Assembly (NCBI GenBank): GCA_009773755.1
Contig: WSZJ01000011.1
Span: 1 to 39,315 of the forward strand
Length of the DNA stretch: 39,315 nucleotides
Source of the DNA: Planctomycetota bacterium
GTDB taxonomy: Bacteria > Planctomycetota > MHYJ01 > WSZJ01
Direction of reading: 5' to 3'
Part shown: piece by piece, positions 22,050-31,039 of the stretch
How the letters are laid out: each line of letters opens with the position of its first letter
Position numbering within the stretch: the stretch's first letter is position 1
The notes under the pieces: model-generated
Seen by the model: the letters and a program-made list of their open reading frames with translations, nothing else
The model's database searches: none
Told to the model about the DNA's origin: nothing
Made by a program: the position numbers and the translations under genes

Positions 22050-22454
22050 TCACCTGTGACGCCGCTCGCGCAGCCTTTCGGCTCCCGCCAACCGCGACTG
22101 CAAGTCGTCAAACGTCAGCGTCCTTGCGCCCAGCGCGGCATAACGCGAGTGGATCAGCCGGTCCACCGGTCCCGCCCCGGCCGCCGGGGCATACGCCTCG
22201 GCTGTTTCCGGCCGGTCGGGCTCCACCTGCCCTGATCGAAACATCCGCGCGATGGCTTCCCGCGCACGTTCCTTCGGCAATTCGTAGTGGAACTGGAGAG
22301 CGTGATACGCCTCGAGGACAACGAGATCCGAGACCACCACCCGATCTCCGGCCCGCGCAGCCGCTTCGAGCCTCTCGCCGCAGACAGCCGCCATCCCGGC
22401 GGGCTCACCCGTGAGCAGCCTCAGCACCACCGAAGTATCCAGGCCGAGCTTCAT
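22050..22454 (-). CDS. vapC: PIN-domain ribonuclease toxin (VapC type)
   Basis: A 134-residue PIN-domain protein. The metal-binding acidic set is visible: Asp6 (LDTSVVLRLL), Glu49 (LEAYHAL), Asp98 (VDRLIH) and Asp116 (TFDD). Such toxins cleave tRNA or rRNA when free of antitoxin. The ATG overlaps the stop of the antitoxin gene (ATGA), the classic arrangement, and fixes the start. The target RNA is unknown. Confidence 0.9.
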   Translation of the reverse strand: MKLGLDTSVVLRLLTGEPAGMAAVCGERLEAAARAGDRVVVSDLVVLEAYHALQFHYELPKERAREAIARMFRSGQVEPDRPETAEAYAPAAGAGPVDRLIHSRYAALGARTLTFDDLQSRLAGAERLRERRHR

Positions 22455-22711
22455 CGGCCCTTCTTCTTCCCGATCGCCCGGCCGATGCTCCGCCGGATGT
22501 CCTCCATGCGGTGCGACTTCCCTTTTGCGTACTTCCTCGCACACCCGATCCACGACAAGTCAGGGCCCGGAGGGACCAGCCTGTACGCGACCTGGCCGCC
22601 TCGCACCTCGCGAACGAGACCCATCCGCTCACCAGGACGTACCCGCATCTCCTCGAGAAGAGCCTTCGGGAACGTGGCCTGGTTCTTGGACGTCAGTTTG
22701 ATGTTCCACAT
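22451..22711 (-). CDS. vapB: AbrB/MazE-fold antitoxin of the VapBC pair
   Basis: An 86-residue protein beginning MWNIKLTSKNQATFPKALLE, a swapped-hairpin (AbrB/SpoVT) DNA-binding N-terminus. The basic C-terminal tail (KKKGR) presumably wraps and blocks the PIN toxin. It should repress its own promoter. It is upstream of and overlapping the toxin gene. The -10 box lies only 7 nt before the ATG with no ribosome site, so the message is likely leaderless. Confidence 0.88.
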   Translation of the reverse strand: MWNIKLTSKNQATFPKALLEEMRVRPGERMGLVREVRGGQVAYRLVPPGPDLSWIGCARKYAKGKSHRMEDIRRSIGRAIGKKKGR

Positions 22712-22767: not shown

Positions 22768-23053
22768 TTACTTCGGCTCCATCACGATCCGGGCCTCGCC
22801 GGGCTCGAAGACCTCGAGGTCGGCGCGAGAACCGCTTCCTGTTCGGCTGGGGCGTTCGCTAAAGCCGCCTTGGGAATGACCTGGCCCCCCGCATTCGCAG
22901 AGTCGTCGTGCGCCTTGCCGGGCCTCACGAGTCGCCACGCCACGAACACCGCTAGAACCATCGCCACAAGGACTCCGAATACCTTCGTCCGCGGCCGAGG
23001 GCCTCGCGGTCCCCGGCCTGCGCCTTGGTCACCAGATCCGTGCAGTCGCGCAT
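22768..23053 (-). pseudogene. Collapsed remnant of a third sigma-TM-Ig fusion gene
   Basis: The 5' end is intact: GAGGG 6 nt before an ATG, then MRDCTDLVTKAQAGDREALG, clearly parallel to MRDVDELVKRSQAGDRAAMG of the full-length neighbour. The frame then shifts and, with most of the sigma domain missing, continues as TKVFGVLVAMVLAVFVAWRL, the transmembrane helix of this family. After a second deletion it reaches a C-terminal-type strand ADLEVFEPGEARIVMEPK and a stop, in another frame. The 286-bp remnant therefore preserves start, membrane helix and end of a gene once about 2.1 kb long. Confidence 0.7.
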
Positions 23054-23192
23054 GGCAATACCCTCAAAGGCCTCCATGTGAATAGAGAGGGGCGCGCGCG
23101 AATTCTTGCCGAAATCCCGAAAATCCCGGACGAGGGCGTGGCCGGAAGGGGAGCCTTGCCCGGAGGGAAGCAGCAGCATGTCCGGGGGAATC

Positions 23193-23234: not shown

Positions 23235-25391
23235 TCACTTTCCCGGTGACATCTCGATGTCGAGCCAGCCCTCCGCCGTCACCGTCTGCTCGAACTGCTC
23301 GTAACCGTCCTTCGAGATTTCCAGCTGGATCGGCGTGCCGGTCGAGACCGGCAGCCCGTTTATCTCAAACGTCCCATCCTCGCGCGACAGGATCTCGCCC
23401 CCGGGACCGTCCACACCGAGCGTCCCCACCGCCTGCGGCCCTTCATCCTCCGACCAGCCGACCATTCCGCCGAATCCGAGACGGCCATTAGCGCCCTCGC
23501 CGCGAAGCTCGAATGAAGCGACCCGGATCAGGGCGCCGGCAATCGGCAGTCCTCGCCCGTCCCGGACTCGTCCTTTGAGTGCGCCGTTCGCTTGTGGAAG
23601 CGTCAGCTTCAGGTGTTTCGCGTCAAGGGCGCTGAAGTCGAGCAGCACCCACCCGTGGCCCGGCGCGTACGCGGCGACGAGATTCGTCGTTCGCGGGCAG
23701 TCGATGAGGCTGAAGCGCCCTTCAGCATCCGTGCGCAACTTCTGCTGTTCCAGGTTCGAGGCGAGCTCGCCGGGGCTTCCGAGAAGCAGCACGGCGCCGG
23801 CTACGGGCGCACCGAGGTGATCCACGACCTCACCCGCGATCTCGAGGCCCGGGAGAAGGGTGATGACGATGTCCGCGTCGGCCCCGGCGAGGGCGACCTC
23901 CTCGCTGCCGTCGTCGAACCCTTCTCGATTCGCGGAAATGACCGCCTTGCCGCGCGGATAAATCCCGTGGAAGAGAAATCTTCCCTCGAAGTCAGTCGTC
24001 ACGCTCCTCGCGGATCCATCGGGGCAATACCCGAACGTGCACCCGTTCTGCAAGCCTTCCCAGTCAATGTACTGCATTTCGAACGTCACCTTCGCCCCTG
24101 CAACCAGGCCTCCCCGCGCGTCCACGACGCGTCCCCGGATGGCGACGCCGGACTTCAGTTCGATCTCGCGGGACACATGCCCGCCCTCCGGGAGCTTCAG
24201 GCGCCAGACGGACTCTCCAGCAGCGTTCGGCTCCTTGATCTCCCCTGCTTTTCTTGCCCGCACTTCGTCGATCCTGCGTTCGATCAGGTAGTCGAGAAAC
24301 CCCGTCGCGAACGCGTGCAGGTCGTAGTCACCGGCCGTCGCTTCGAGACGGAATGCTCCGTCGGCGCCGGTCGTCGTCGAGGGGCCGGCTTCACCGGAAA
24401 GCTGCTTGCCCGTCAACCACACGCGCGCTCCCTCGACCGGGCGTCCATCCCGCGAATCCCGGACATGCCCCTCGACCACGGCAAGCTGCGATGAAGCGGC
24501 CGCCGTCGAATCCGTCCGTGCAGCATCGTTGGCATTGTTTCTGGCCGCGTCCGCCGTGGAAGGACTGTTCGTGGCCCCTTCTCCGTTCCCGGAGGCGCCC
24601 CGTTCGGCGACATGGCCCTGAGCGGAATCCTGAGCTCCGGACCCGAGCGGGCCGAATCGATGGAACGCGTACCACACTCCGATCGCCAGCAGCACGGCAA
24701 CGGCCGCCGCGATCCCGACCGTGGGGCGATTCGGGCCTCCCGGCGCCGCCGGCCGGGCGTCACGCGAGAGCTTTTCCAACCGCGACGCCAGCCGCGCCGG
24801 CGCGCCCGTGCGAGGCGCAGCGGAGAGCTCGGTCTCCAGAAGCGCCATCGTGATCGCGACGCCCGCGCCAGCGAGGGCGCGCTTCAGCCGCTCGTGCGCC
24901 GTGTGCAGCCGGTCCGCCACGGTCCCCTCCGGGCATTCCATCGCCCGGGCGATGTCCGCGTACGCCAGCCCGTGCTCGTAGCGCAGCTCCACCGTCGTCC
25001 GCAGGCTCTGCTCAAGTCCCTTCACCGCCAGTCTCACCGACTGCGCCAGCTCGCTGCGTTCCATGGCATCCGCCTCCCGGTTTTCCTGAGAAGTGGAAGC
25101 CGCGGCCGCGAGCGCCTTCGCTTCGGCCGCGCGGCGCCGGCCCGTTTCGTGGGCCTGGTTGAGCGCGATGCGGTACAGCCAGCCGCGGAACGCCCGCGCG
25201 TCCCTCAGCCCGCCCAGCGACTCGATCATCCGCGCGAACGTCTCCTGCGTCGCGTCCTCCGCGTCCGGCTCGCTCCGCAAGTGCGACAGTTCCAGGCGCC
25301 AGATGTCGTCCTGCACCGCCGCCACGAGTTCCCCCATGGCCGCCCGGTCGCCCGCCTGGGACCGCTTCACCAGCTCGTCCACGTCGCGCAT
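23235..25391 (-). CDS. ECF sigma factor fused to a transmembrane helix and carboxypeptidase-regulatory-like domains (copy A)
   Basis: A 718-residue single-chain protein. Residues 1-85 hold sigma region 2 (DAEDATQETFARMI, FRGWLYRIALNQA). Residues 115-172 hold region 4 with a full helix-turn-helix (YADIARAMECPEGTVADRLH). One membrane helix at about 224-244 follows, then a Ser/Ala/Asn-rich spacer. About four Ig-like repeats of the carboxypeptidase-regulatory type come next, marked by phrases such as VVEGHVRDSRDGRPVEGARV and IRGRVVDARGGLVAGAKV. The sigma part would be cytoplasmic and the repeats outside, so release for transcription would need proteolysis or membrane-bound action. Start has GAGGG 6 nt upstream. 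Tandem with copy B. Confidence 0.9.
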   Translation of the reverse strand: MRDVDELVKRSQAGDRAAMGELVAAVQDDIWRLELSHLRSEPDAEDATQETFARMIESLGGLRDARAFRGWLYRIALNQAHETGRRRAAEAKALAAAASTSQENREADAMERSELAQSVRLAVKGLEQSLRTTVELRYEHGLAYADIARAMECPEGTVADRLHTAHERLKRALAGAGVAITMALLETELSAAPRTGAPARLASRLEKLSRDARPAAPGGPNRPTVGIAAAVAVLLAIGVWYAFHRFGPLGSGAQDSAQGHVAERGASGNGEGATNSPSTADAARNNANDAARTDSTAAASSQLAVVEGHVRDSRDGRPVEGARVWLTGKQLSGEAGPSTTTGADGAFRLEATAGDYDLHAFATGFLDYLIERRIDEVRARKAGEIKEPNAAGESVWRLKLPEGGHVSREIELKSGVAIRGRVVDARGGLVAGAKVTFEMQYIDWEGLQNGCTFGYCPDGSARSVTTDFEGRFLFHGIYPRGKAVISANREGFDDGSEEVALAGADADIVITLLPGLEIAGEVVDHLGAPVAGAVLLLGSPGELASNLEQQKLRTDAEGRFSLIDCPRTTNLVAAYAPGHGWVLLDFSALDAKHLKLTLPQANGALKGRVRDGRGLPIAGALIRVASFELRGEGANGRLGFGGMVGWSEDEGPQAVGTLGVDGPGGEILSREDGTFEINGLPVSTGTPIQLEISKDGYEQFEQTVTAEGWLDIEMSPGK

Positions 25392-25404
25392 CGCTCGCCC
25401 TCGC

Positions 25405-25438
25405 TGTCCGGCTTCCGGGAGAATAGACGGGGAAGCGG
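25405..25438 (-). promoter_or_regulatory. Upstream element shared by the sigma-fusion genes (copy A)
   Basis: Read on the minus strand, CCGCTTCC, TCTATTCTC and CGGAAGCCGGACA occur in the same order and almost the same distance from the start as before copy B. TCTATTC also precedes the remnant gene. Conservation over otherwise diverged flanks suggests a promoter or binding site, perhaps for the encoded sigma factor itself. Confidence 0.5.
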
Positions 25439-25482
25439 CGGATTCCTTGGCGAAATCCGGAATTCAGATCTGCACCGCGCGT

Positions 25483-27666
25483 TTATTTGTCGTCCAACGG
25501 CTCCGGCTCAAGCGTGAGATCGAGCCAATGCGTGTCGCCAACGGTGCCGCGGGCATCCTGGTATTCGCGCTGGATCACGCGAAGGACTACTTCCACCTCA
25601 GGCCCGGTCTCCAGGCCTTCGAGCGTGAACTCGCCGTTCGCGTCCGTCAGGACTTCCGGGCGCTTGATGATCAGGATGGCCTCCATTCGGATCTCGTCGG
25701 CCGGGACTTCCACGTGGTGCATGCCTCCGCGGTCGAATTCGAGGACGCCCCGTGCGGGACCGGACCGGCGCCGGATGGACTCGACAACGACGAGGGCCCC
25801 CGGGACCGGAACTCCGTGGTTGTTCCGGACCCGGCCTTTCACGGCCGGACCTGCGTCCGGGAGCGTCAGGCGGATCGGTCCCGCGCGCAGGTCTTCGAGT
25901 CTCACGCCGGTCCAGCCGTGCCCCGGCGCCCAGGCAACGAGGAAGTTCGACTCTCCGGGCGGATTCTCGAATTCGAATGTCCCTGTCGTTCCGGTAAGAA
26001 GATGCCACGGGTTGGCGTGAGCGCCCCGAGGGTCGTCGATGTAGACGTGCGCGCCTTCAATGGGGCGGCCCGAAAGATCGGTCACCTCGCCCGCGACGGG
26101 AGTGCTCGCTCGCAGGGTGATCGAGATCTCCGTCGTCAAACCCACCAGCGGAACCTGGAGACCGCGTTCCGCGAAACCCGCACAAGAGAGTCGCAGCTCG
26201 ACCGGACCGCCGGGGTAGAGGGCGCCGATTCTGAAGCGCCCCGCCTCGTCCGTCAGGGTCGGGCCGGCGCCCGGAGGCCCGAGGGGGTACTTGAACCCCC
26301 ACTTCATGTCGCTTCCGGGAAGGCGGCAATCCTGACCGGAAAACACGACCTCGACCCCGGGAATCGCGCTTCCGGCCGGATCGTAGACAACGCCGCGGAT
26401 TTCGCTCCCCGGCGTGAGCGCGACATCTCTCGTCGCCGGGACAGCGGGGTCCATGTCGACGAGGCGGAAGCGATCCGTCATGCCGATCGCGTAGTCGATG
26501 GGCGTGGCAAATTTCTGCGACAGCGGCCTTTCCTCCGGCTCCTCGCCTTCGTAGTGCCTCATCAGGAGCCAGGAGTGATGCCCGACGTGGCCTTCGGAAA
26601 AGGCGTCGATCAGGAATCGGCCCGTGCCGGCCTCGAGAGAGAATCGTCCGTGCGCATCGGTCGTGGCCAGGACTTCGTTGATTTCACCCTGCCGGTTCCC
26701 GCCCCACCGGGTCAGCACGACCGTCGCGCCGCTGAGCGGTTCGTTGGAAAGCGCGTCGACCACGCGACCCGTGAGCCGGGAAGCGGCGGACCGGATCTCC
26801 GTTTCCCCGCCGGCGCCGATTCCGGAGGAAGGAAACTTTCCGGCCTCCGCCCCGGGAGCGCCGGCCTTTTCGTCCCGGCCCGTGAGCCCGGAATTGCCGA
26901 CTCCCCCGGCGCCGTCCCCCGAGGGCCGGTCGGCGGCGAGGCGCCACACCAGGAAGAGCGCGCCGATCGACAGCAGAACTACGGCCATCGCCCTCGTCCG
27001 TGCCTTTCGTCCGCCATGCAAAGCGCCCTCCGTCGCCCCGGACTCGCGCATGACTCGCTTCAACCCGTCGGCAAGCCCTTCGGGCGCGGGGATCCGCGGC
27101 TCCGCGGCGAGTTCGCGCTCGAGCAGCGCCAGCGTGACGACAAGCCCCGCGCCGGCGAGCGACTTCCTCAGGCGCTCGTGCGCGGTGTTCAGCCGGCGCG
27201 CGACAGTCCCTTCTGGCACCTGCATCGCTTCCGCGATCTCCGCGTATCCCAGCGCGTGCTCATACCGCAGCCGCACCGTCTGCCCCAGTTCCTCGTCGAG
27301 CCCCGCCACCGCCTGCCTGACCTGCGTCCGCAGTTCCTCGCGCTCGATCGTTTCCATGGGGCCGGCCTCCTTGTTGGCGGAAGCGCGGTCCGGGATGGGG
27401 GCGGCTCGCGCGCGGCGGACTTGCCGCGCCTTGTCCAGCGCGATGCGGTAGATCCACCCCGCGAACGCCGCGGGGTCGCGAAGAGACCCGATCGAGACGA
27501 CGACCTGCCGGAACGTTTCCTGCGTCGCGTCCTCGGCGTCAGCGTCGTTCCCGAGCTCCGAGCGGAGAAGCCGCCAGATGTCGCCTTGCACCGCGACAAC
27601 CAGCGCTTCGAGCGCCGCGCGATCTCCCGCGCGCGCCCGCCCGGCCAGGTCCTCCACGTCCTGCAT
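25483..27666 (-). CDS. ECF sigma factor fused to a transmembrane helix and carboxypeptidase-regulatory-like domains (copy B)
   Basis: A 727-residue paralogue of copy A with the same plan. Region 2 is at about 15-85 (DAEDATQETFRQVV, FAGWIYRIALDKA), region 4 at about 110-170 (YAEIAEAMQVPEGTVARRLN), the membrane helix at about 226-242 and Ig-like repeats from about 295 to the end. The sigma halves are clearly alike, while the outer halves have diverged strongly, as expected for receptors with different ligands. No separate anti-sigma gene accompanies either copy, so the tether may replace it. The 91-bp gap to copy A carries its own upstream element, so both may be transcribed independently. Confidence 0.9.
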   Translation of the reverse strand: MQDVEDLAGRARAGDRAALEALVVAVQGDIWRLLRSELGNDADAEDATQETFRQVVVSIGSLRDPAAFAGWIYRIALDKARQVRRARAAPIPDRASANKEAGPMETIEREELRTQVRQAVAGLDEELGQTVRLRYEHALGYAEIAEAMQVPEGTVARRLNTAHERLRKSLAGAGLVVTLALLERELAAEPRIPAPEGLADGLKRVMRESGATEGALHGGRKARTRAMAVVLLSIGALFLVWRLAADRPSGDGAGGVGNSGLTGRDEKAGAPGAEAGKFPSSGIGAGGETEIRSAASRLTGRVVDALSNEPLSGATVVLTRWGGNRQGEINEVLATTDAHGRFSLEAGTGRFLIDAFSEGHVGHHSWLLMRHYEGEEPEERPLSQKFATPIDYAIGMTDRFRLVDMDPAVPATRDVALTPGSEIRGVVYDPAGSAIPGVEVVFSGQDCRLPGSDMKWGFKYPLGPPGAGPTLTDEAGRFRIGALYPGGPVELRLSCAGFAERGLQVPLVGLTTEISITLRASTPVAGEVTDLSGRPIEGAHVYIDDPRGAHANPWHLLTGTTGTFEFENPPGESNFLVAWAPGHGWTGVRLEDLRAGPIRLTLPDAGPAVKGRVRNNHGVPVPGALVVVESIRRRSGPARGVLEFDRGGMHHVEVPADEIRMEAILIIKRPEVLTDANGEFTLEGLETGPEVEVVLRVIQREYQDARGTVGDTHWLDLTLEPEPLDDK

Positions 27667-27684: not shown

Positions 27685-27718
27685 GTCCGGCTTCCGACAG
27701 AATAGAGAAGCGGTAACC
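27685..27718 (-). promoter_or_regulatory. Upstream element shared by the sigma-fusion genes (copy B)
   Basis: GGTTACCGCTTC, TCTATTCTG and CGGAAGCCGGACA on the minus strand, about 34 nt before the start of copy B. It matches the copy A element over most of its length. It also lies in the divergent region with the next gene. Confidence 0.5.
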
Positions 27719-27813
27719 GGATTTCTTCGCGGATTTCCGACTTAACGCCCGAATTCTCCCGAAGCCGAAGTTAAGCTGCCCCTCCGAACTCTCAATACTC
27801 ACGGAGGCGGGCC

Positions 27814-29067
27814 ATGAAACCCTTCGCTTCGGCAGTCCTGCTGGTCCTTGCAATGACAGCCTCCAGCCGTGCGGAAGACCCGCAGGGCATCTCGGAAGCG
27901 GCGGGCAAGGCGCGTGCGACGCACCTGGCCCAGGTGATCGCAAAATGGGAAACGGACACCGGAAAGCAGGTGGTGTACGACCTGGCGGGGTTCTGGAAGA
28001 AAATGGGGCCGAAGGCGACCTGGCAGAACATGGCCCGGTACATCAAGCTGGAGGACGGCGTCGAGGAGCCGCTGCGCACGGGGAGGGAAGTCGCGCTGTA
28101 CGACCGGATCAAGGAATTCACGACAACTCGCAAGGAAGGCGAAACGCTCGGCATGGACAAGCTGCTGGTCCTCGCGCTCGAATCCGCCGAAATCGTCGAG
28201 GAAACTGTCAATTTCCAGGCTGTTACGCTGACGCTTCACAATGTCGTGCGCCTCATCGCCCGCCCGCTGCAATGGGCCGGTCCGCAGGACGAAGGCAACT
28301 TCGGGCACCCGGCGTCGGATCCCGCTTCGCCCGTTCTGGACGACTTGCGCGGCCTGGCGGCGACGAAGGGCCGTACGTTTGCGGACATCTGCGCGATCAA
28401 GAAGAAAACGGACGGCGAGGTCATCGACCTGCAGTGGCCGCTGACGGTGCTCTTCGACCTCAAGACCGGGATCTTCCAGCCGCAGCCCGGCGCGCGGGAA
28501 ACGCTGTGGAATGGTGGCTGCCATTATTACTACTGGGTCGGCGCGCTGGGACACGCGACGCTCGGCTCGGTCGCGGTGATGGGCGGCCTGACCAAGGAAC
28601 TTTCCGCGAAGAAGGCCATGGGCGACGGCGAGCAGGGCATCGTGCAGGTCTCCTGCTTCGTCGCCGGGTCGATGTTCGGCGCCGAGGCATATTCGAAGCG
28701 CGACGGCCTGCTGGGGTGGTTCGACGGGCGATGGAAAGGGACGGCGACGATGAAGTGGGATGACAAATCGGTGGAAGTGCCTCTCCTCCTGGAGATCACG
28801 GCAGAGGAAACCGGCTTCAGCATCTGTGCGCTCGAGCCCGAGACGCTCAAACGGATGCCGAACAAGGAAAACGAAACCACGAAGTTCAGCGTCCGGAAGG
28901 AAGGTGAGGGTGATGAGCAGAAGCTGTTCCTCGAGGCGTCCAATGACAAGGACGTTCTGAAGTTACGCCTCGAAAAGCCGGGGACGCTGAATGTGGAAGG
29001 CTGGCAGACGAAAACGCCAGACAGAAAGGTCATGGGGGCGCTGAAGCGCCTGGCGAACTCGAAATGA
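27814..29067 (+). CDS. Exported protein of unknown function
   Basis: A 417-residue protein with a signal peptide (MKPFASAVLLVLAMTASSRAED). The body is mixed alpha/beta with a Lys-rich helical first third, a Tyr/Gly-rich centre (GGCHYYYWVGALGHATLGS) and a charged beta-rich C-terminus. I recognise no family or catalytic motif. GGAGG lies about 9 nt before the ATG. It is divergent from sigma-fusion copy B and could be controlled by it, which is inference only. Confidence 0.75.
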   Translation: MKPFASAVLLVLAMTASSRAEDPQGISEAAGKARATHLAQVIAKWETDTGKQVVYDLAGFWKKMGPKATWQNMARYIKLEDGVEEPLRTGREVALYDRIKEFTTTRKEGETLGMDKLLVLALESAEIVEETVNFQAVTLTLHNVVRLIARPLQWAGPQDEGNFGHPASDPASPVLDDLRGLAATKGRTFADICAIKKKTDGEVIDLQWPLTVLFDLKTGIFQPQPGARETLWNGGCHYYYWVGALGHATLGSVAVMGGLTKELSAKKAMGDGEQGIVQVSCFVAGSMFGAEAYSKRDGLLGWFDGRWKGTATMKWDDKSVEVPLLLEITAEETGFSICALEPETLKRMPNKENETTKFSVRKEGEGDEQKLFLEASNDKDVLKLRLEKPGTLNVEGWQTKTPDRKVMGALKRLANSK

Positions 29068-29083: not shown

Positions 29084-29773
29084 TCAAATCCCGAACAACT
29101 CCTTGAGCTCGGCCTCCGCCTCTTCGCGGCAGGTCACCGTTTCCATCAGCTCCGCCAGCAGAACTTCGCGCAGCCGTCGCCGCACTTCGCCGATGAAGTT
29201 CGTGACCTGCGCTTCCGTGAGCCCGAGGGAAGCGGACGCTTCGCGTTGCGGGGCGGCCTCCAGGACGCAGCGGCGGTACGCGGCGTAGCGCTCGGGGCGG
29301 CCCTCCTTCGAGAGCGAGGACTCGACCGCGGCCAGCGAGCGGGAGAGGGTTGCGCGCGTCCATTCGGCGTCGAGCAGGGCGCCCGGCGGCGATCCGCCCG
29401 CGGCCGCGATGCGCTCTTCCAGCGCCGGGTCGGCGTCGAGAGAGAGCGGCGCCCGCCCGCCACCGCGCTTGGCGGCCTTCCGTGCGCGGAGTTCGTTGCT
29501 GAGGAAGTTGTCGAGGACGGCCTTGACGAAGGTGCGGAAGCGGGCGCGGGAGGCGTCGAAGCGGGCGAGCGTGTCCTTTTCGAAGAGTTCGAGGAAGAAC
29601 TCCTGGGTAAGGTCGCGGGCCTCCTCGGGGGCGCGGCCGGTGCGGGCGCGGATGCAGGCGTAGACGGGATTCCAGTAGAGGCGGGCGAGGCGCTCCCAGG
29701 ATTCGCGAAAACGAGGGGCTTCGCGGTCCGCGGCGCCGGTGATGAGGGTCCAGGAACTGCTCGGGAACTGCAT
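29084..29773 (-). CDS. ECF-family RNA polymerase sigma factor (large-loop subtype)
   Basis: A 229-residue sigma factor. Region 2 is at about 25-100: EEARDLTQEFFLELFEKDTL, then RARFRTFVKAVLDNFLSNE and the basic KAAKRGGGRAPLSLD. Region 4 is at about 170-205. The pattern matches the ECF type abundant in Planctomycetota, Acidobacteriota and Verrucomicrobiota that often sits next to kinase or secreted-protein genes. The start is the ATG of MQFPSSSW because upstream sequence is amidase shadow. It is divergent from the amidase gene. No anti-sigma factor is adjacent. Confidence 0.88.
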   Translation of the reverse strand: MQFPSSSWTLITGAADREAPRFRESWERLARLYWNPVYACIRARTGRAPEEARDLTQEFFLELFEKDTLARFDASRARFRTFVKAVLDNFLSNELRARKAAKRGGGRAPLSLDADPALEERIAAAGGSPPGALLDAEWTRATLSRSLAAVESSLSKEGRPERYAAYRRCVLEAAPQREASASLGLTEAQVTNFIGEVRRRLREVLLAELMETVTCREEAEAELKELFGI

Positions 29774-29860
29774 TGCCCGATTTTCTGCGAATTCTTCGAT
29801 GGACGCACTTCCAAAGCGGTAACAGGAGGGCAGAAGCTCCCTCAACGAGGAGGAACCACG

Positions 29861-31039
29861 ATGAAGCACGCCTGGGTGGTGCTGTGTCTCGCAGCGGCGG
29901 CGCAGGCGGGCCCGCCGAAGCCGGGAACGATCTGGGACGCTTCGCCAAACTTCACGCCCAGCTCCCGCGAGTCGTCCTACAACATCGACTCGATCGTGAT
30001 TCACACGACGGAAGGGGTGGATACGAACGGTGACGGGTACTTTTCGGAGAGCTACACCCAGGCGATCTCCTGGTTTAACAACCCGGCGGCGGGCGCGAGC
30101 GCGCACTACGTGGTGGCGCCGTGGGGCGAGATCACTCAGATGGTGGCCGACGACGACATCGCGTGGCACGCGACGTACTACAACTCGCGGTCGATAGGCA
30201 TCGAGTGCGCGGGGTTCGCAGGAAAAGCGGGGACGTGGACGCCGGAGCTGGTGGACGCGCTGGCGGCGTTGGTCGCGTACCTGTGCGACGCGTACGCTGT
30301 GAGCGCGGTGCACCCGGCCGGCAACGCGTATTCGTACGCGGACTCGAAGTACAAGGGCGTCGGACTGGTCGGGCACAACCAGGTCCAGCCGTGGGACCGG
30401 ACGGACCCGGGGTCGTATTTCCCGTGGAGTTCGTTAGTGGAAAAAGTGATCGCGCTCCTCGCCGGCGAGCCGCCCGCGACGCCCTCGATCATCTCGCCCG
30501 CGGCGGGGGCAGAGCTCGGGTCCAGCGCCGTGTTCCTGGACTGGTCCTGGGTCTCCGGCATCGACTATTACTACGTCGTCGTCTACGACGTGTGGGGCAC
30601 CGCCGTCTTCGACGCGTGGCCGACCGTCTCCTCGGCATCCGCTTCCCTCGCCTCCGGCACCTACTCCTGGTACGTCTGGGCGCACAACGCCGCGGGATGG
30701 AGCGGCGAAGCCTCGTCCTGGTTCTCCGTGTCCACCGCGACTCCCCCCGCGCCGACGGGCCTCTGGCCGAAATGGCCCGACGAAGGCTGGAGCCAGTCCG
30801 GCCCCAGCGTGACCCTCTGGTGGGACGCCGTCGGCGGCGCAACGAACCACGAGGTCTGGGTCGAGTACTGGGACGGCGGCGCCTACCGCTACTACCATTC
30901 CTGGACGACCGGAAGCGGCTCGAGCTTCACCTTCTGGCCCGCCGCGGGCGCAAAGTGGTACCGGTGGTGGGTGAGGGCGAAAGGAAGCGGCGGGTGGGGA
31001 GAGTGGTCGGAGGGCGCGGAGTTCTGGTGGGAGCCCTGA
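29861..31039 (+). CDS. Exported N-acetylmuramoyl-L-alanine amidase (Amidase_2) with FN3-like repeats
   Basis: A 392-residue secreted peptidoglycan amidase. A short signal peptide precedes an Amidase_2/T7-lysozyme-type domain. His48 (IVIHTTEG), His172 (VGHNQVQP) and Asp182 (TDPGSYFPW) are the likely zinc ligands, and SAHYVVAPWGEITQMV is the family strand. Two Trp/Tyr-rich FN3-like repeats follow (about residues 205-295 and 300-392), probably binding the wall or sugars. GAGGAGG lies 7 nt before the ATG. A degenerate piece of a related second repeat occurs about 3.4 kb downstream. Confidence 0.92.
   Translation: MKHAWVVLCLAAAAQAGPPKPGTIWDASPNFTPSSRESSYNIDSIVIHTTEGVDTNGDGYFSESYTQAISWFNNPAAGASAHYVVAPWGEITQMVADDDIAWHATYYNSRSIGIECAGFAGKAGTWTPELVDALAALVAYLCDAYAVSAVHPAGNAYSYADSKYKGVGLVGHNQVQPWDRTDPGSYFPWSSLVEKVIALLAGEPPATPSIISPAAGAELGSSAVFLDWSWVSGIDYYYVVVYDVWGTAVFDAWPTVSSASASLASGTYSWYVWAHNAAGWSGEASSWFSVSTATPPAPTGLWPKWPDEGWSQSGPSVTLWWDAVGGATNHEVWVEYWDGGAYRYYHSWTTGSGSSFTFWPAAGAKWYRWWVRAKGSGGWGEWSEGAEFWWEP

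Follow-up and report, generated by a model that had tools for sequence, protein, structure and literature searches.

Membrane-anchored ECF sigma factors that consist of a single chain are already known. At least 26 ECF groups carry regulatory extensions, and membrane-spanning C-terminal fusions are found in ECF48, ECF52, ECF53, and ECF243 (PMC8999054). In IutY of Pseudomonas putida (ECF243), one chain runs from a cytoplasmic ECF sigma factor through the membrane to a periplasmic regulatory domain of the FecR-type anti-sigma/CSS kind, which contacts a TonB-dependent receptor; the sigma factor is freed by Prc and then RseP (PMC5411451). Likewise, ECF52 (SCO4117 of Streptomyces coelicolor), ECF48, and ECF53 join a sigma factor, a helix, and an extracytoplasmic extension with a possible ligand-binding domain; proteolytic release and autoregulation have been proposed there too, and a truncated form of SCO4117 supports release by inference (PMC5826349, PMC8999054). 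ECF52 proteins, reported only from Actinobacteria, have a zinc-finger anti-sigma domain, a proline-rich stretch, and a carbohydrate-binding module. Large paralogous sets with long C-terminal extensions are a feature of ECF57 and the related planctomycete WD40 ECFs (PMC8999054, PMC8567305), in which the WD40 extension is proposed to act by protein interaction. In the RpoE-RseA and SigW-RsiW pairs, the sigma factor is also held by a membrane protein, but this sensor is a protein of its own.

Here, we describe two adjacent genes in a 39,315-nucleotide stretch of Planctomycetota DNA (the window) whose products, named W718 and W727 after their lengths, follow the plan of IutY and ECF52. Hydropathy, Pfam, and AlphaFold (AF2) models give, in one chain, a sigma part, a membrane helix, and, on what we infer to be the outer side of the membrane, an extracytoplasmic part. 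Unlike that of IutY, this outer part consists of four CarboxypepD_reg sandwiches, and no FecR-type domain was matched by Pfam in either protein. Pfam also found no zf-HC2 or other anti-sigma match after region 4, no carbohydrate-binding module (the outer matches were all to CarboxypepD_reg and related sandwiches), and no WD40 match in the two proteins. By these features, they are set apart from ECF243, ECF52, and ECF57, although they share with ECF57 the long C-terminal extension and the many paralogues. The original prediction called such a plan poorly described. The concept is better described than that (IutY, ECF48, ECF52, and ECF53; PMC8999054), but we did not find this outer module, a dedicated promoter, or module swapping described in the literature; an earlier mention in a survey of planctomycete-type ECFs is possible. 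On balance, we favor the reading that each protein is a sigma factor kept latent at the membrane, probably released by regulated intramembrane proteolysis and positively autoregulated, and that outer modules have been swapped.

Two adjacent genes, a decayed copy, and their relatives

W727 is encoded at positions 25483 to 27666 and W718 at 23235 to 25391, both on the minus strand and separated by 91 bp. The expectation of two open reading frames of 718 and 727 residues with full ECF regions 2 and 4 agrees with coordinates, lengths, Pfam, and TIGR02937. GC content by codon position is coding-like in both genes (0.72 to 0.74, 0.51 to 0.52, and 0.81 to 0.82). Sigma-70 regions 2 and 4 exceed the Pfam gathering cutoffs within residues ~1 to 175 of each protein (residues 1 to 172 of W727; 27151 to 27666, minus strand), and, as in ECF factors, regions 3 and 1.1 are absent. 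The NCBIfam model TIGR02937 (sigma70-ECF) scores 75 and 82 bits in the two proteins against a cutoff of 42.9. The core motifs are unbroken (DAEDATQETF, GW-YRIAL, and EGTVA-RL-TAHERL), and the core-binding and HTH residues DAEDATQE, GW-xRIA, and GTV-x-RL are retained in eight aligned members. AlgU and RpoE are the closest PDB sequence relatives of W727, Foldseek matched the N terminus of its AF2 model to ECF sigma factor structures, and the sigma part resembles AlgU, RpoE, and SigW in both sequence and fold. By domain content and conserved residues, W718 and W727 are ECF sigma factors, predicted to bind RNA polymerase and start transcription.

A domain search confirmed the chain of carboxypeptidase-regulatory-like repeats. 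PF13620 (CarboxypepD_reg) matches four stretches in W718, where the repeats begin at residue ~306, and five in W727 (128 and 119 bits). In the full-length AF2 model of W727 (mean pLDDT 69.6), the sigma helices are accompanied by two more helices, a helix at residues 220 to 245, and a series of beta-sandwiches. Residues 295 to 727 (25486 to 26784, minus strand) form four CarboxypepD_reg/prealbumin-like domains that Foldseek matched to pilin-type prealbumin/CnaB folds. The predicted Ig-like domains hold as a loose term for the fold, but Big_1 (Ig-like) falls just under its gathering cutoff of 34.9 (34.7 and 33.4 bits), and the repeats are beta-sandwiches of the CarboxypepD_reg/prealbumin type. 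The outer module also exists alone, since a membrane helix and CarboxypepD_reg-type repeats occur without a sigma domain in proteins of 589 aa (G003:C119; L060:1755-3521) and 1068 aa (L254:1135-4338).

Downstream of W718, the predicted decayed third copy is real (22782 to 23053, minus strand), as determined by tblastn and by reading of the frames. Positions 22997 to 23053 read MRDCTDLVTKAQAGDREAL, the start and 19 codons of a sigma factor of the W718/W727 kind. Positions 22926 to 22988 read, in a different frame, TKVFGVLVAMVLAVFVAWRLV, a membrane helix resembling those of the relatives, and this frame stops at 22782. Thus, the sigma start, helix, and stalk are left; almost the entire sigma domain and all of the repeats are gone, and a promoter-like motif is kept. 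In the congener G003, a sigma gene of the same close subfamily (C155, L061) has an intact promoter motif with its sigma part and repeats in different frames; either this copy is decaying too, or the sequence contains an error.

Other genes flank the locus. A PIN-domain protein encoded downstream of the decayed copy and an overlapping 86-aa open reading frame (22451 to 22711) resembling AbrB-type antitoxins are likely a toxin-antitoxin module (22050 to 22711, minus strand). Divergent from W727 across a 147-bp gap, positions 27814 to 29067 (plus strand) encode a protein of 417 aa that begins like a signal peptide and is unmatched by Pfam; it is a possible partner or target of W727. An open reading frame at 29084 to 30376 (minus strand) has a Sigma-70 region 2 match (26 bits versus a cutoff of 24), with no region 4 recognized by Pfam, and one at 29246 to 31039 (plus strand) has an Amidase_2 (N-acetylmuramoyl-L-alanine amidase) domain.

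The plan is used family-wide, as had been expected. The window's genome (5.78 Mb, 88% complete, 302 contigs) encodes at least seven complete sigma-helix-extension proteins (the two window genes and those on contigs 38 [two], 109, 137, and 223), and another, on contig 175, is truncated where the contig ends. There are at least 12 in G003. We collected 40 long proteins, some from the genus and some from elsewhere in the class and phylum. All 40 have a hydrophobic 19-mer (mean hydropathy of ≥1.7) starting at residues 191 to 235, and 23 have CarboxypepD_reg, the rest having other or unrecognized outer domains. The window genes read in one uninterrupted frame from sigma part to repeats, and 38 further proteins with the identical plan rule out a frameshift or an assembly artifact. 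Tandem arrays also occur on contig 38 of G000, contig 20 of G003, and contig 44 of G001. A search of 23 genomes located the close subfamily, which we term class A, in four of the five from the genus and in one from a different family of the class. Planctomycetota SJ402 has the plan as well, with CarboxypepD_reg. A Poribacteria chromosome encodes several sigma factors of ~1,000 aa (L240, L241, L243, and L244) with a helix at residues 221 to 241, and in the two run through Pfam the outer repeats are of the Sortilin/BNR type. The plan may therefore be widespread beyond the phylum with other sensors. A search of plasmids gave nothing nearer than a distant SigW-like match. As to the host, its ECF repertoire would fit Planctomycetota, and PF07596, found in none of 14 control genomes, gave a single match above its cutoff.

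The linker, the membrane helix, and proposed release of the sigma factor

Each protein has one hydrophobic segment (residues 225 to 243 of W718, mean Kyte-Doolittle value of 2.32; residues 227 to 245 of W727, 2.18), and AF2 places a helix at residues 220 to 245 of W727 (26932 to 27009, minus strand), in agreement with the predicted single membrane helix per protein. We place the sigma part in the cytoplasm and the repeats outside. The positive-inside rule speaks for a cytoplasmic sigma part by 4 versus 1 and 3 versus 1 in the window proteins but favors neither side over the 40 proteins (16 versus 18, with 6 ties). Region 4 is joined to the membrane helix by a linker with the consensus LAGAGVALALALLERELAAAPR--APERL (residues 173 to 219 of W727; 27010 to 27150, minus strand), conserved right up to the helix. 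L186 and P195 are kept in at least 90% of the 40 proteins, and AF2 predicts linker helices at residues 179 to 187 and 196 to 216 (pLDDT mostly >83). Conservation is lowest in the helix and stalk (16 to 27% identity). The original prediction held that there is no separate anti-sigma factor. No annotated anti-sigma gene adjoins the pair, but the conserved two-helix linker could act in cis.

When residues 1 to 250 were modeled with 41 sequences (pLDDT 88.5, pTM 0.77), the packing of regions 2 and 4 matched that of the anti-sigma-bound ECFs CnrH-CnrY (TMt 0.81) and SigW-RsiW (0.72 to 0.76) better than that of RNA polymerase-bound ECFs (0.35 to 0.44), whereas the likewise anti-sigma-bound AlgU-MucA and RpoE-RseA matched at just 0.45 to 0.49. 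This compact arrangement fits a latent factor, perhaps one inhibited in cis, and it is weak evidence because every sigma model carried the linker and was judged from its scores.

The same features could be read as ancestry. The linker and helix would then be what is left of an ancient membrane anti-sigma factor after its fusion to the sigma factor (compare ECF52 and IutY), with the repeats added later. Regulatory extensions are thought in some cases to stem from anti-sigma fusion (PMC8999054), and both the two conserved linker helices and the likeness of the model to some anti-sigma-bound ECFs would suit such an origin. However, Pfam recognized no anti-sigma domain in the linker, and zinc-finger, RseA, RskA, and FecR-type domains were likewise not found, so we regard this origin as possible but rather doubtful.

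In the favored reading, that of a latent sigma factor released by proteolysis, each protein would be a one-chain transmembrane signaling device. A cytoplasmic ECF sigma factor (regions 2 and 4) would be held at the membrane by a single helix, the two-helix juxtamembrane linker may keep regions 2 and 4 closed and inactive, and the four outer beta-sandwich domains would sense an envelope or surface cue. Upon this cue, the outer part would probably be cleaved, and the membrane helix would then be cut by an RseP-type site-2 protease to free the sigma factor. The genome contains M50 site-2 protease genes, one with RseP-like spacing, which says little because 14 of 14 control genomes have M50 proteases.

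In the chief competing reading, the sigma factor might act while still tethered, with a conformational change transmitted via the helix opening the sigma part and RNA polymerase being recruited at the membrane in the absence of any cleavage. The linker is conserved up to the helix, as mechanical coupling needs; the extensions of ECF41 and ECF238 switch by conformational change (PMC8999054); and no site-1 cleavage motif was identified. However, the poor conservation of the helix and stalk suits an anchor better than precise coupling, and both studied relatives with the same plan, IutY and SCO4117, point to proteolysis (PMC5411451, PMC5826349). Action at the membrane thus seems unlikely to us, and because of these two relatives, release is favored over it by analogy, cleavage by Prc and RseP having been demonstrated for IutY (PMC5411451) and being proposed for the window proteins.

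A promoter-like motif and the histories of the two halves

Both genes are preceded by a promoter-like motif on the minus strand. That of W727, AAGAAATCCG-N11-TCTATTCT (27699 to 27727), lies 32 nt before the ATG. That of W718, AAGGAATCCG-N11-TCTATTCT (25420 to 25448), lies 28 nt before the ATG within the 91-bp gap, so W718 and W727 need not form a single operon. These are the two occurrences of TCTATTCT in the window. The motif kept by the decayed copy, AAGAATTCG-N12-TCTATTCA (23079 to 23107, minus strand), has two mismatches, and 1 of 1,000 shuffles was as good. The class A consensus is AAGRAAYCCG-N11/12-TCTATTCT, 25 to 32 nt before the ATG in well-matched genes; it is often preceded by an ATTCC-like stretch, and the other upstream DNA shows little in common by eye.

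Because the motif was first noticed in these same upstream regions, the argument rests on its genome-wide exclusiveness and on leave-one-out analysis. Nine of nine sites with two or fewer mismatches in six genomes (~30 Mb) are upstream of class A genes, including the decayed and frameshifted copies. In the leave-one-out analysis, no shuffle out of 1,000 was as good for eight genes, 1 was for two genes, and 5 were for one gene. The motif was not found upstream of the class A genes G003:C20a, C20c, and G002:C217, which form one sigma clade. A second subfamily has a different motif, GCCGGCGTCGTATGATC, which is matched exactly three times in five genomes, each time upstream of one of that subfamily's own sigma genes. 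Beyond the sigma genes, the motif search gave almost no other targets. A broad regulon was rejected since, at three or fewer mismatches, G000 had 8 matches versus 5 in the reversed control, and the extra matches are background. One class A motif with three mismatches (G004:C392:9076-9104, L201, minus strand) lies ahead of a gene whose product looks secreted, and this gene may truly belong to the regulon.

Because an ECF factor usually activates the gene that encodes it, we read the motifs as autoregulatory promoters. With close matches confined to the upstream regions of this subfamily, sigma factors of the W718/W727 type very probably drive their own genes, the transcription itself being predicted from the position of the sites. 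A freed sigma factor would activate its own gene via the class A motif and probably sister genes too, given the promoter class common to the paralogues. Conservation merely through the copying of upstream regions along with the genes, the motif not being read by these sigma factors, would be in keeping with paralogous genes and partly tandem arrays. However, the motif is nearly exact and its distance nearly fixed (25 to 32 nt) next to proteins that are 49 to 75% identical in the sigma part and 25 to 42% identical in the outer part, and it is lost or changed in the separate sigma clade, as expected if sigma factor and promoter change together. We consider such copying improbable as the explanation.

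The sigma halves of W718 and W727 are alike and the outer halves have diverged (56% versus 30% identity), as originally proposed. The closest relatives of the two halves conflict. In the sigma part, W718 is 75% identical to G003:C152 and W727 is 67% identical to G003:C13; each is thus nearer to a different congener gene than to its neighbor, which rules out a recent tandem duplication. In the outer part, W718 is 42% identical to G003:C20b and 31% identical to G003:C152. The sigma tree groups W718 with G003:C152 (100/99), and the outer tree groups it with G003:C20b (91/97, not starred). In AU tests, the sigma data rejected W718 with G003:C20b (P = 7.5e-5), the outer data rejected W718 with G003:C152 (P = 0.004), and W727 with G003:C13 was borderline in the outer data (P = 0.0499); the size of these P values should not be pressed because the pairs were chosen after quick trees and the outer branches are long, but the reversal of identities is plain. 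A single vertical history for the whole genes was rejected by these tests. The crossover lies near residues 200 to 225, at the membrane segment, where modules appear to have been exchanged, or the sigma part to have undergone an equivalent gene conversion. The proposal that the outer parts diverged as in receptors with different ligands fits the divergence itself but is too simple, because the sigma and outer trees differ and module replacement accounts for part of it. Another reading makes these proteins mainly structural envelope proteins of beta-sandwich repeats, with a sigma part that is spent or has little activity. In its favor are outer-part relatives without a sigma domain (G003:C119 and L254), the decay of one window copy, and the frameshift in G003:C155. 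We consider it very improbable, because no other part is as well conserved as the sigma part (49 to 75% versus 25 to 42% identity for the outer part) and each subfamily keeps its own promoter motif.

Many putative sensors and one promoter class

If these proteins are latent sigma factors released by proteolysis, several different sensors would feed one promoter class through modules exchanged at the membrane segment. More tentatively, and as a possibility that we hold with low confidence, the genus may run a set of plug-in sensors in which one private, self-reinforcing promoter class, cis inhibition by the juxtamembrane helices, and swapped modules let many different cues converge, with parallel and insulated circuits for the other subfamilies, each with a promoter of its own. 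If true, transmembrane signaling would be contained in one gene, which would supply the sensor, the membrane relay, and the promoter-selecting subunit, and a genome would carry many such paralogues. Thanks to the dedicated promoter motif, a simple reporter is enough to test the output. The swaps seen in nature suggest interchangeable sensor and output halves, which would be useful for learning how membrane-held sigma factors are activated.
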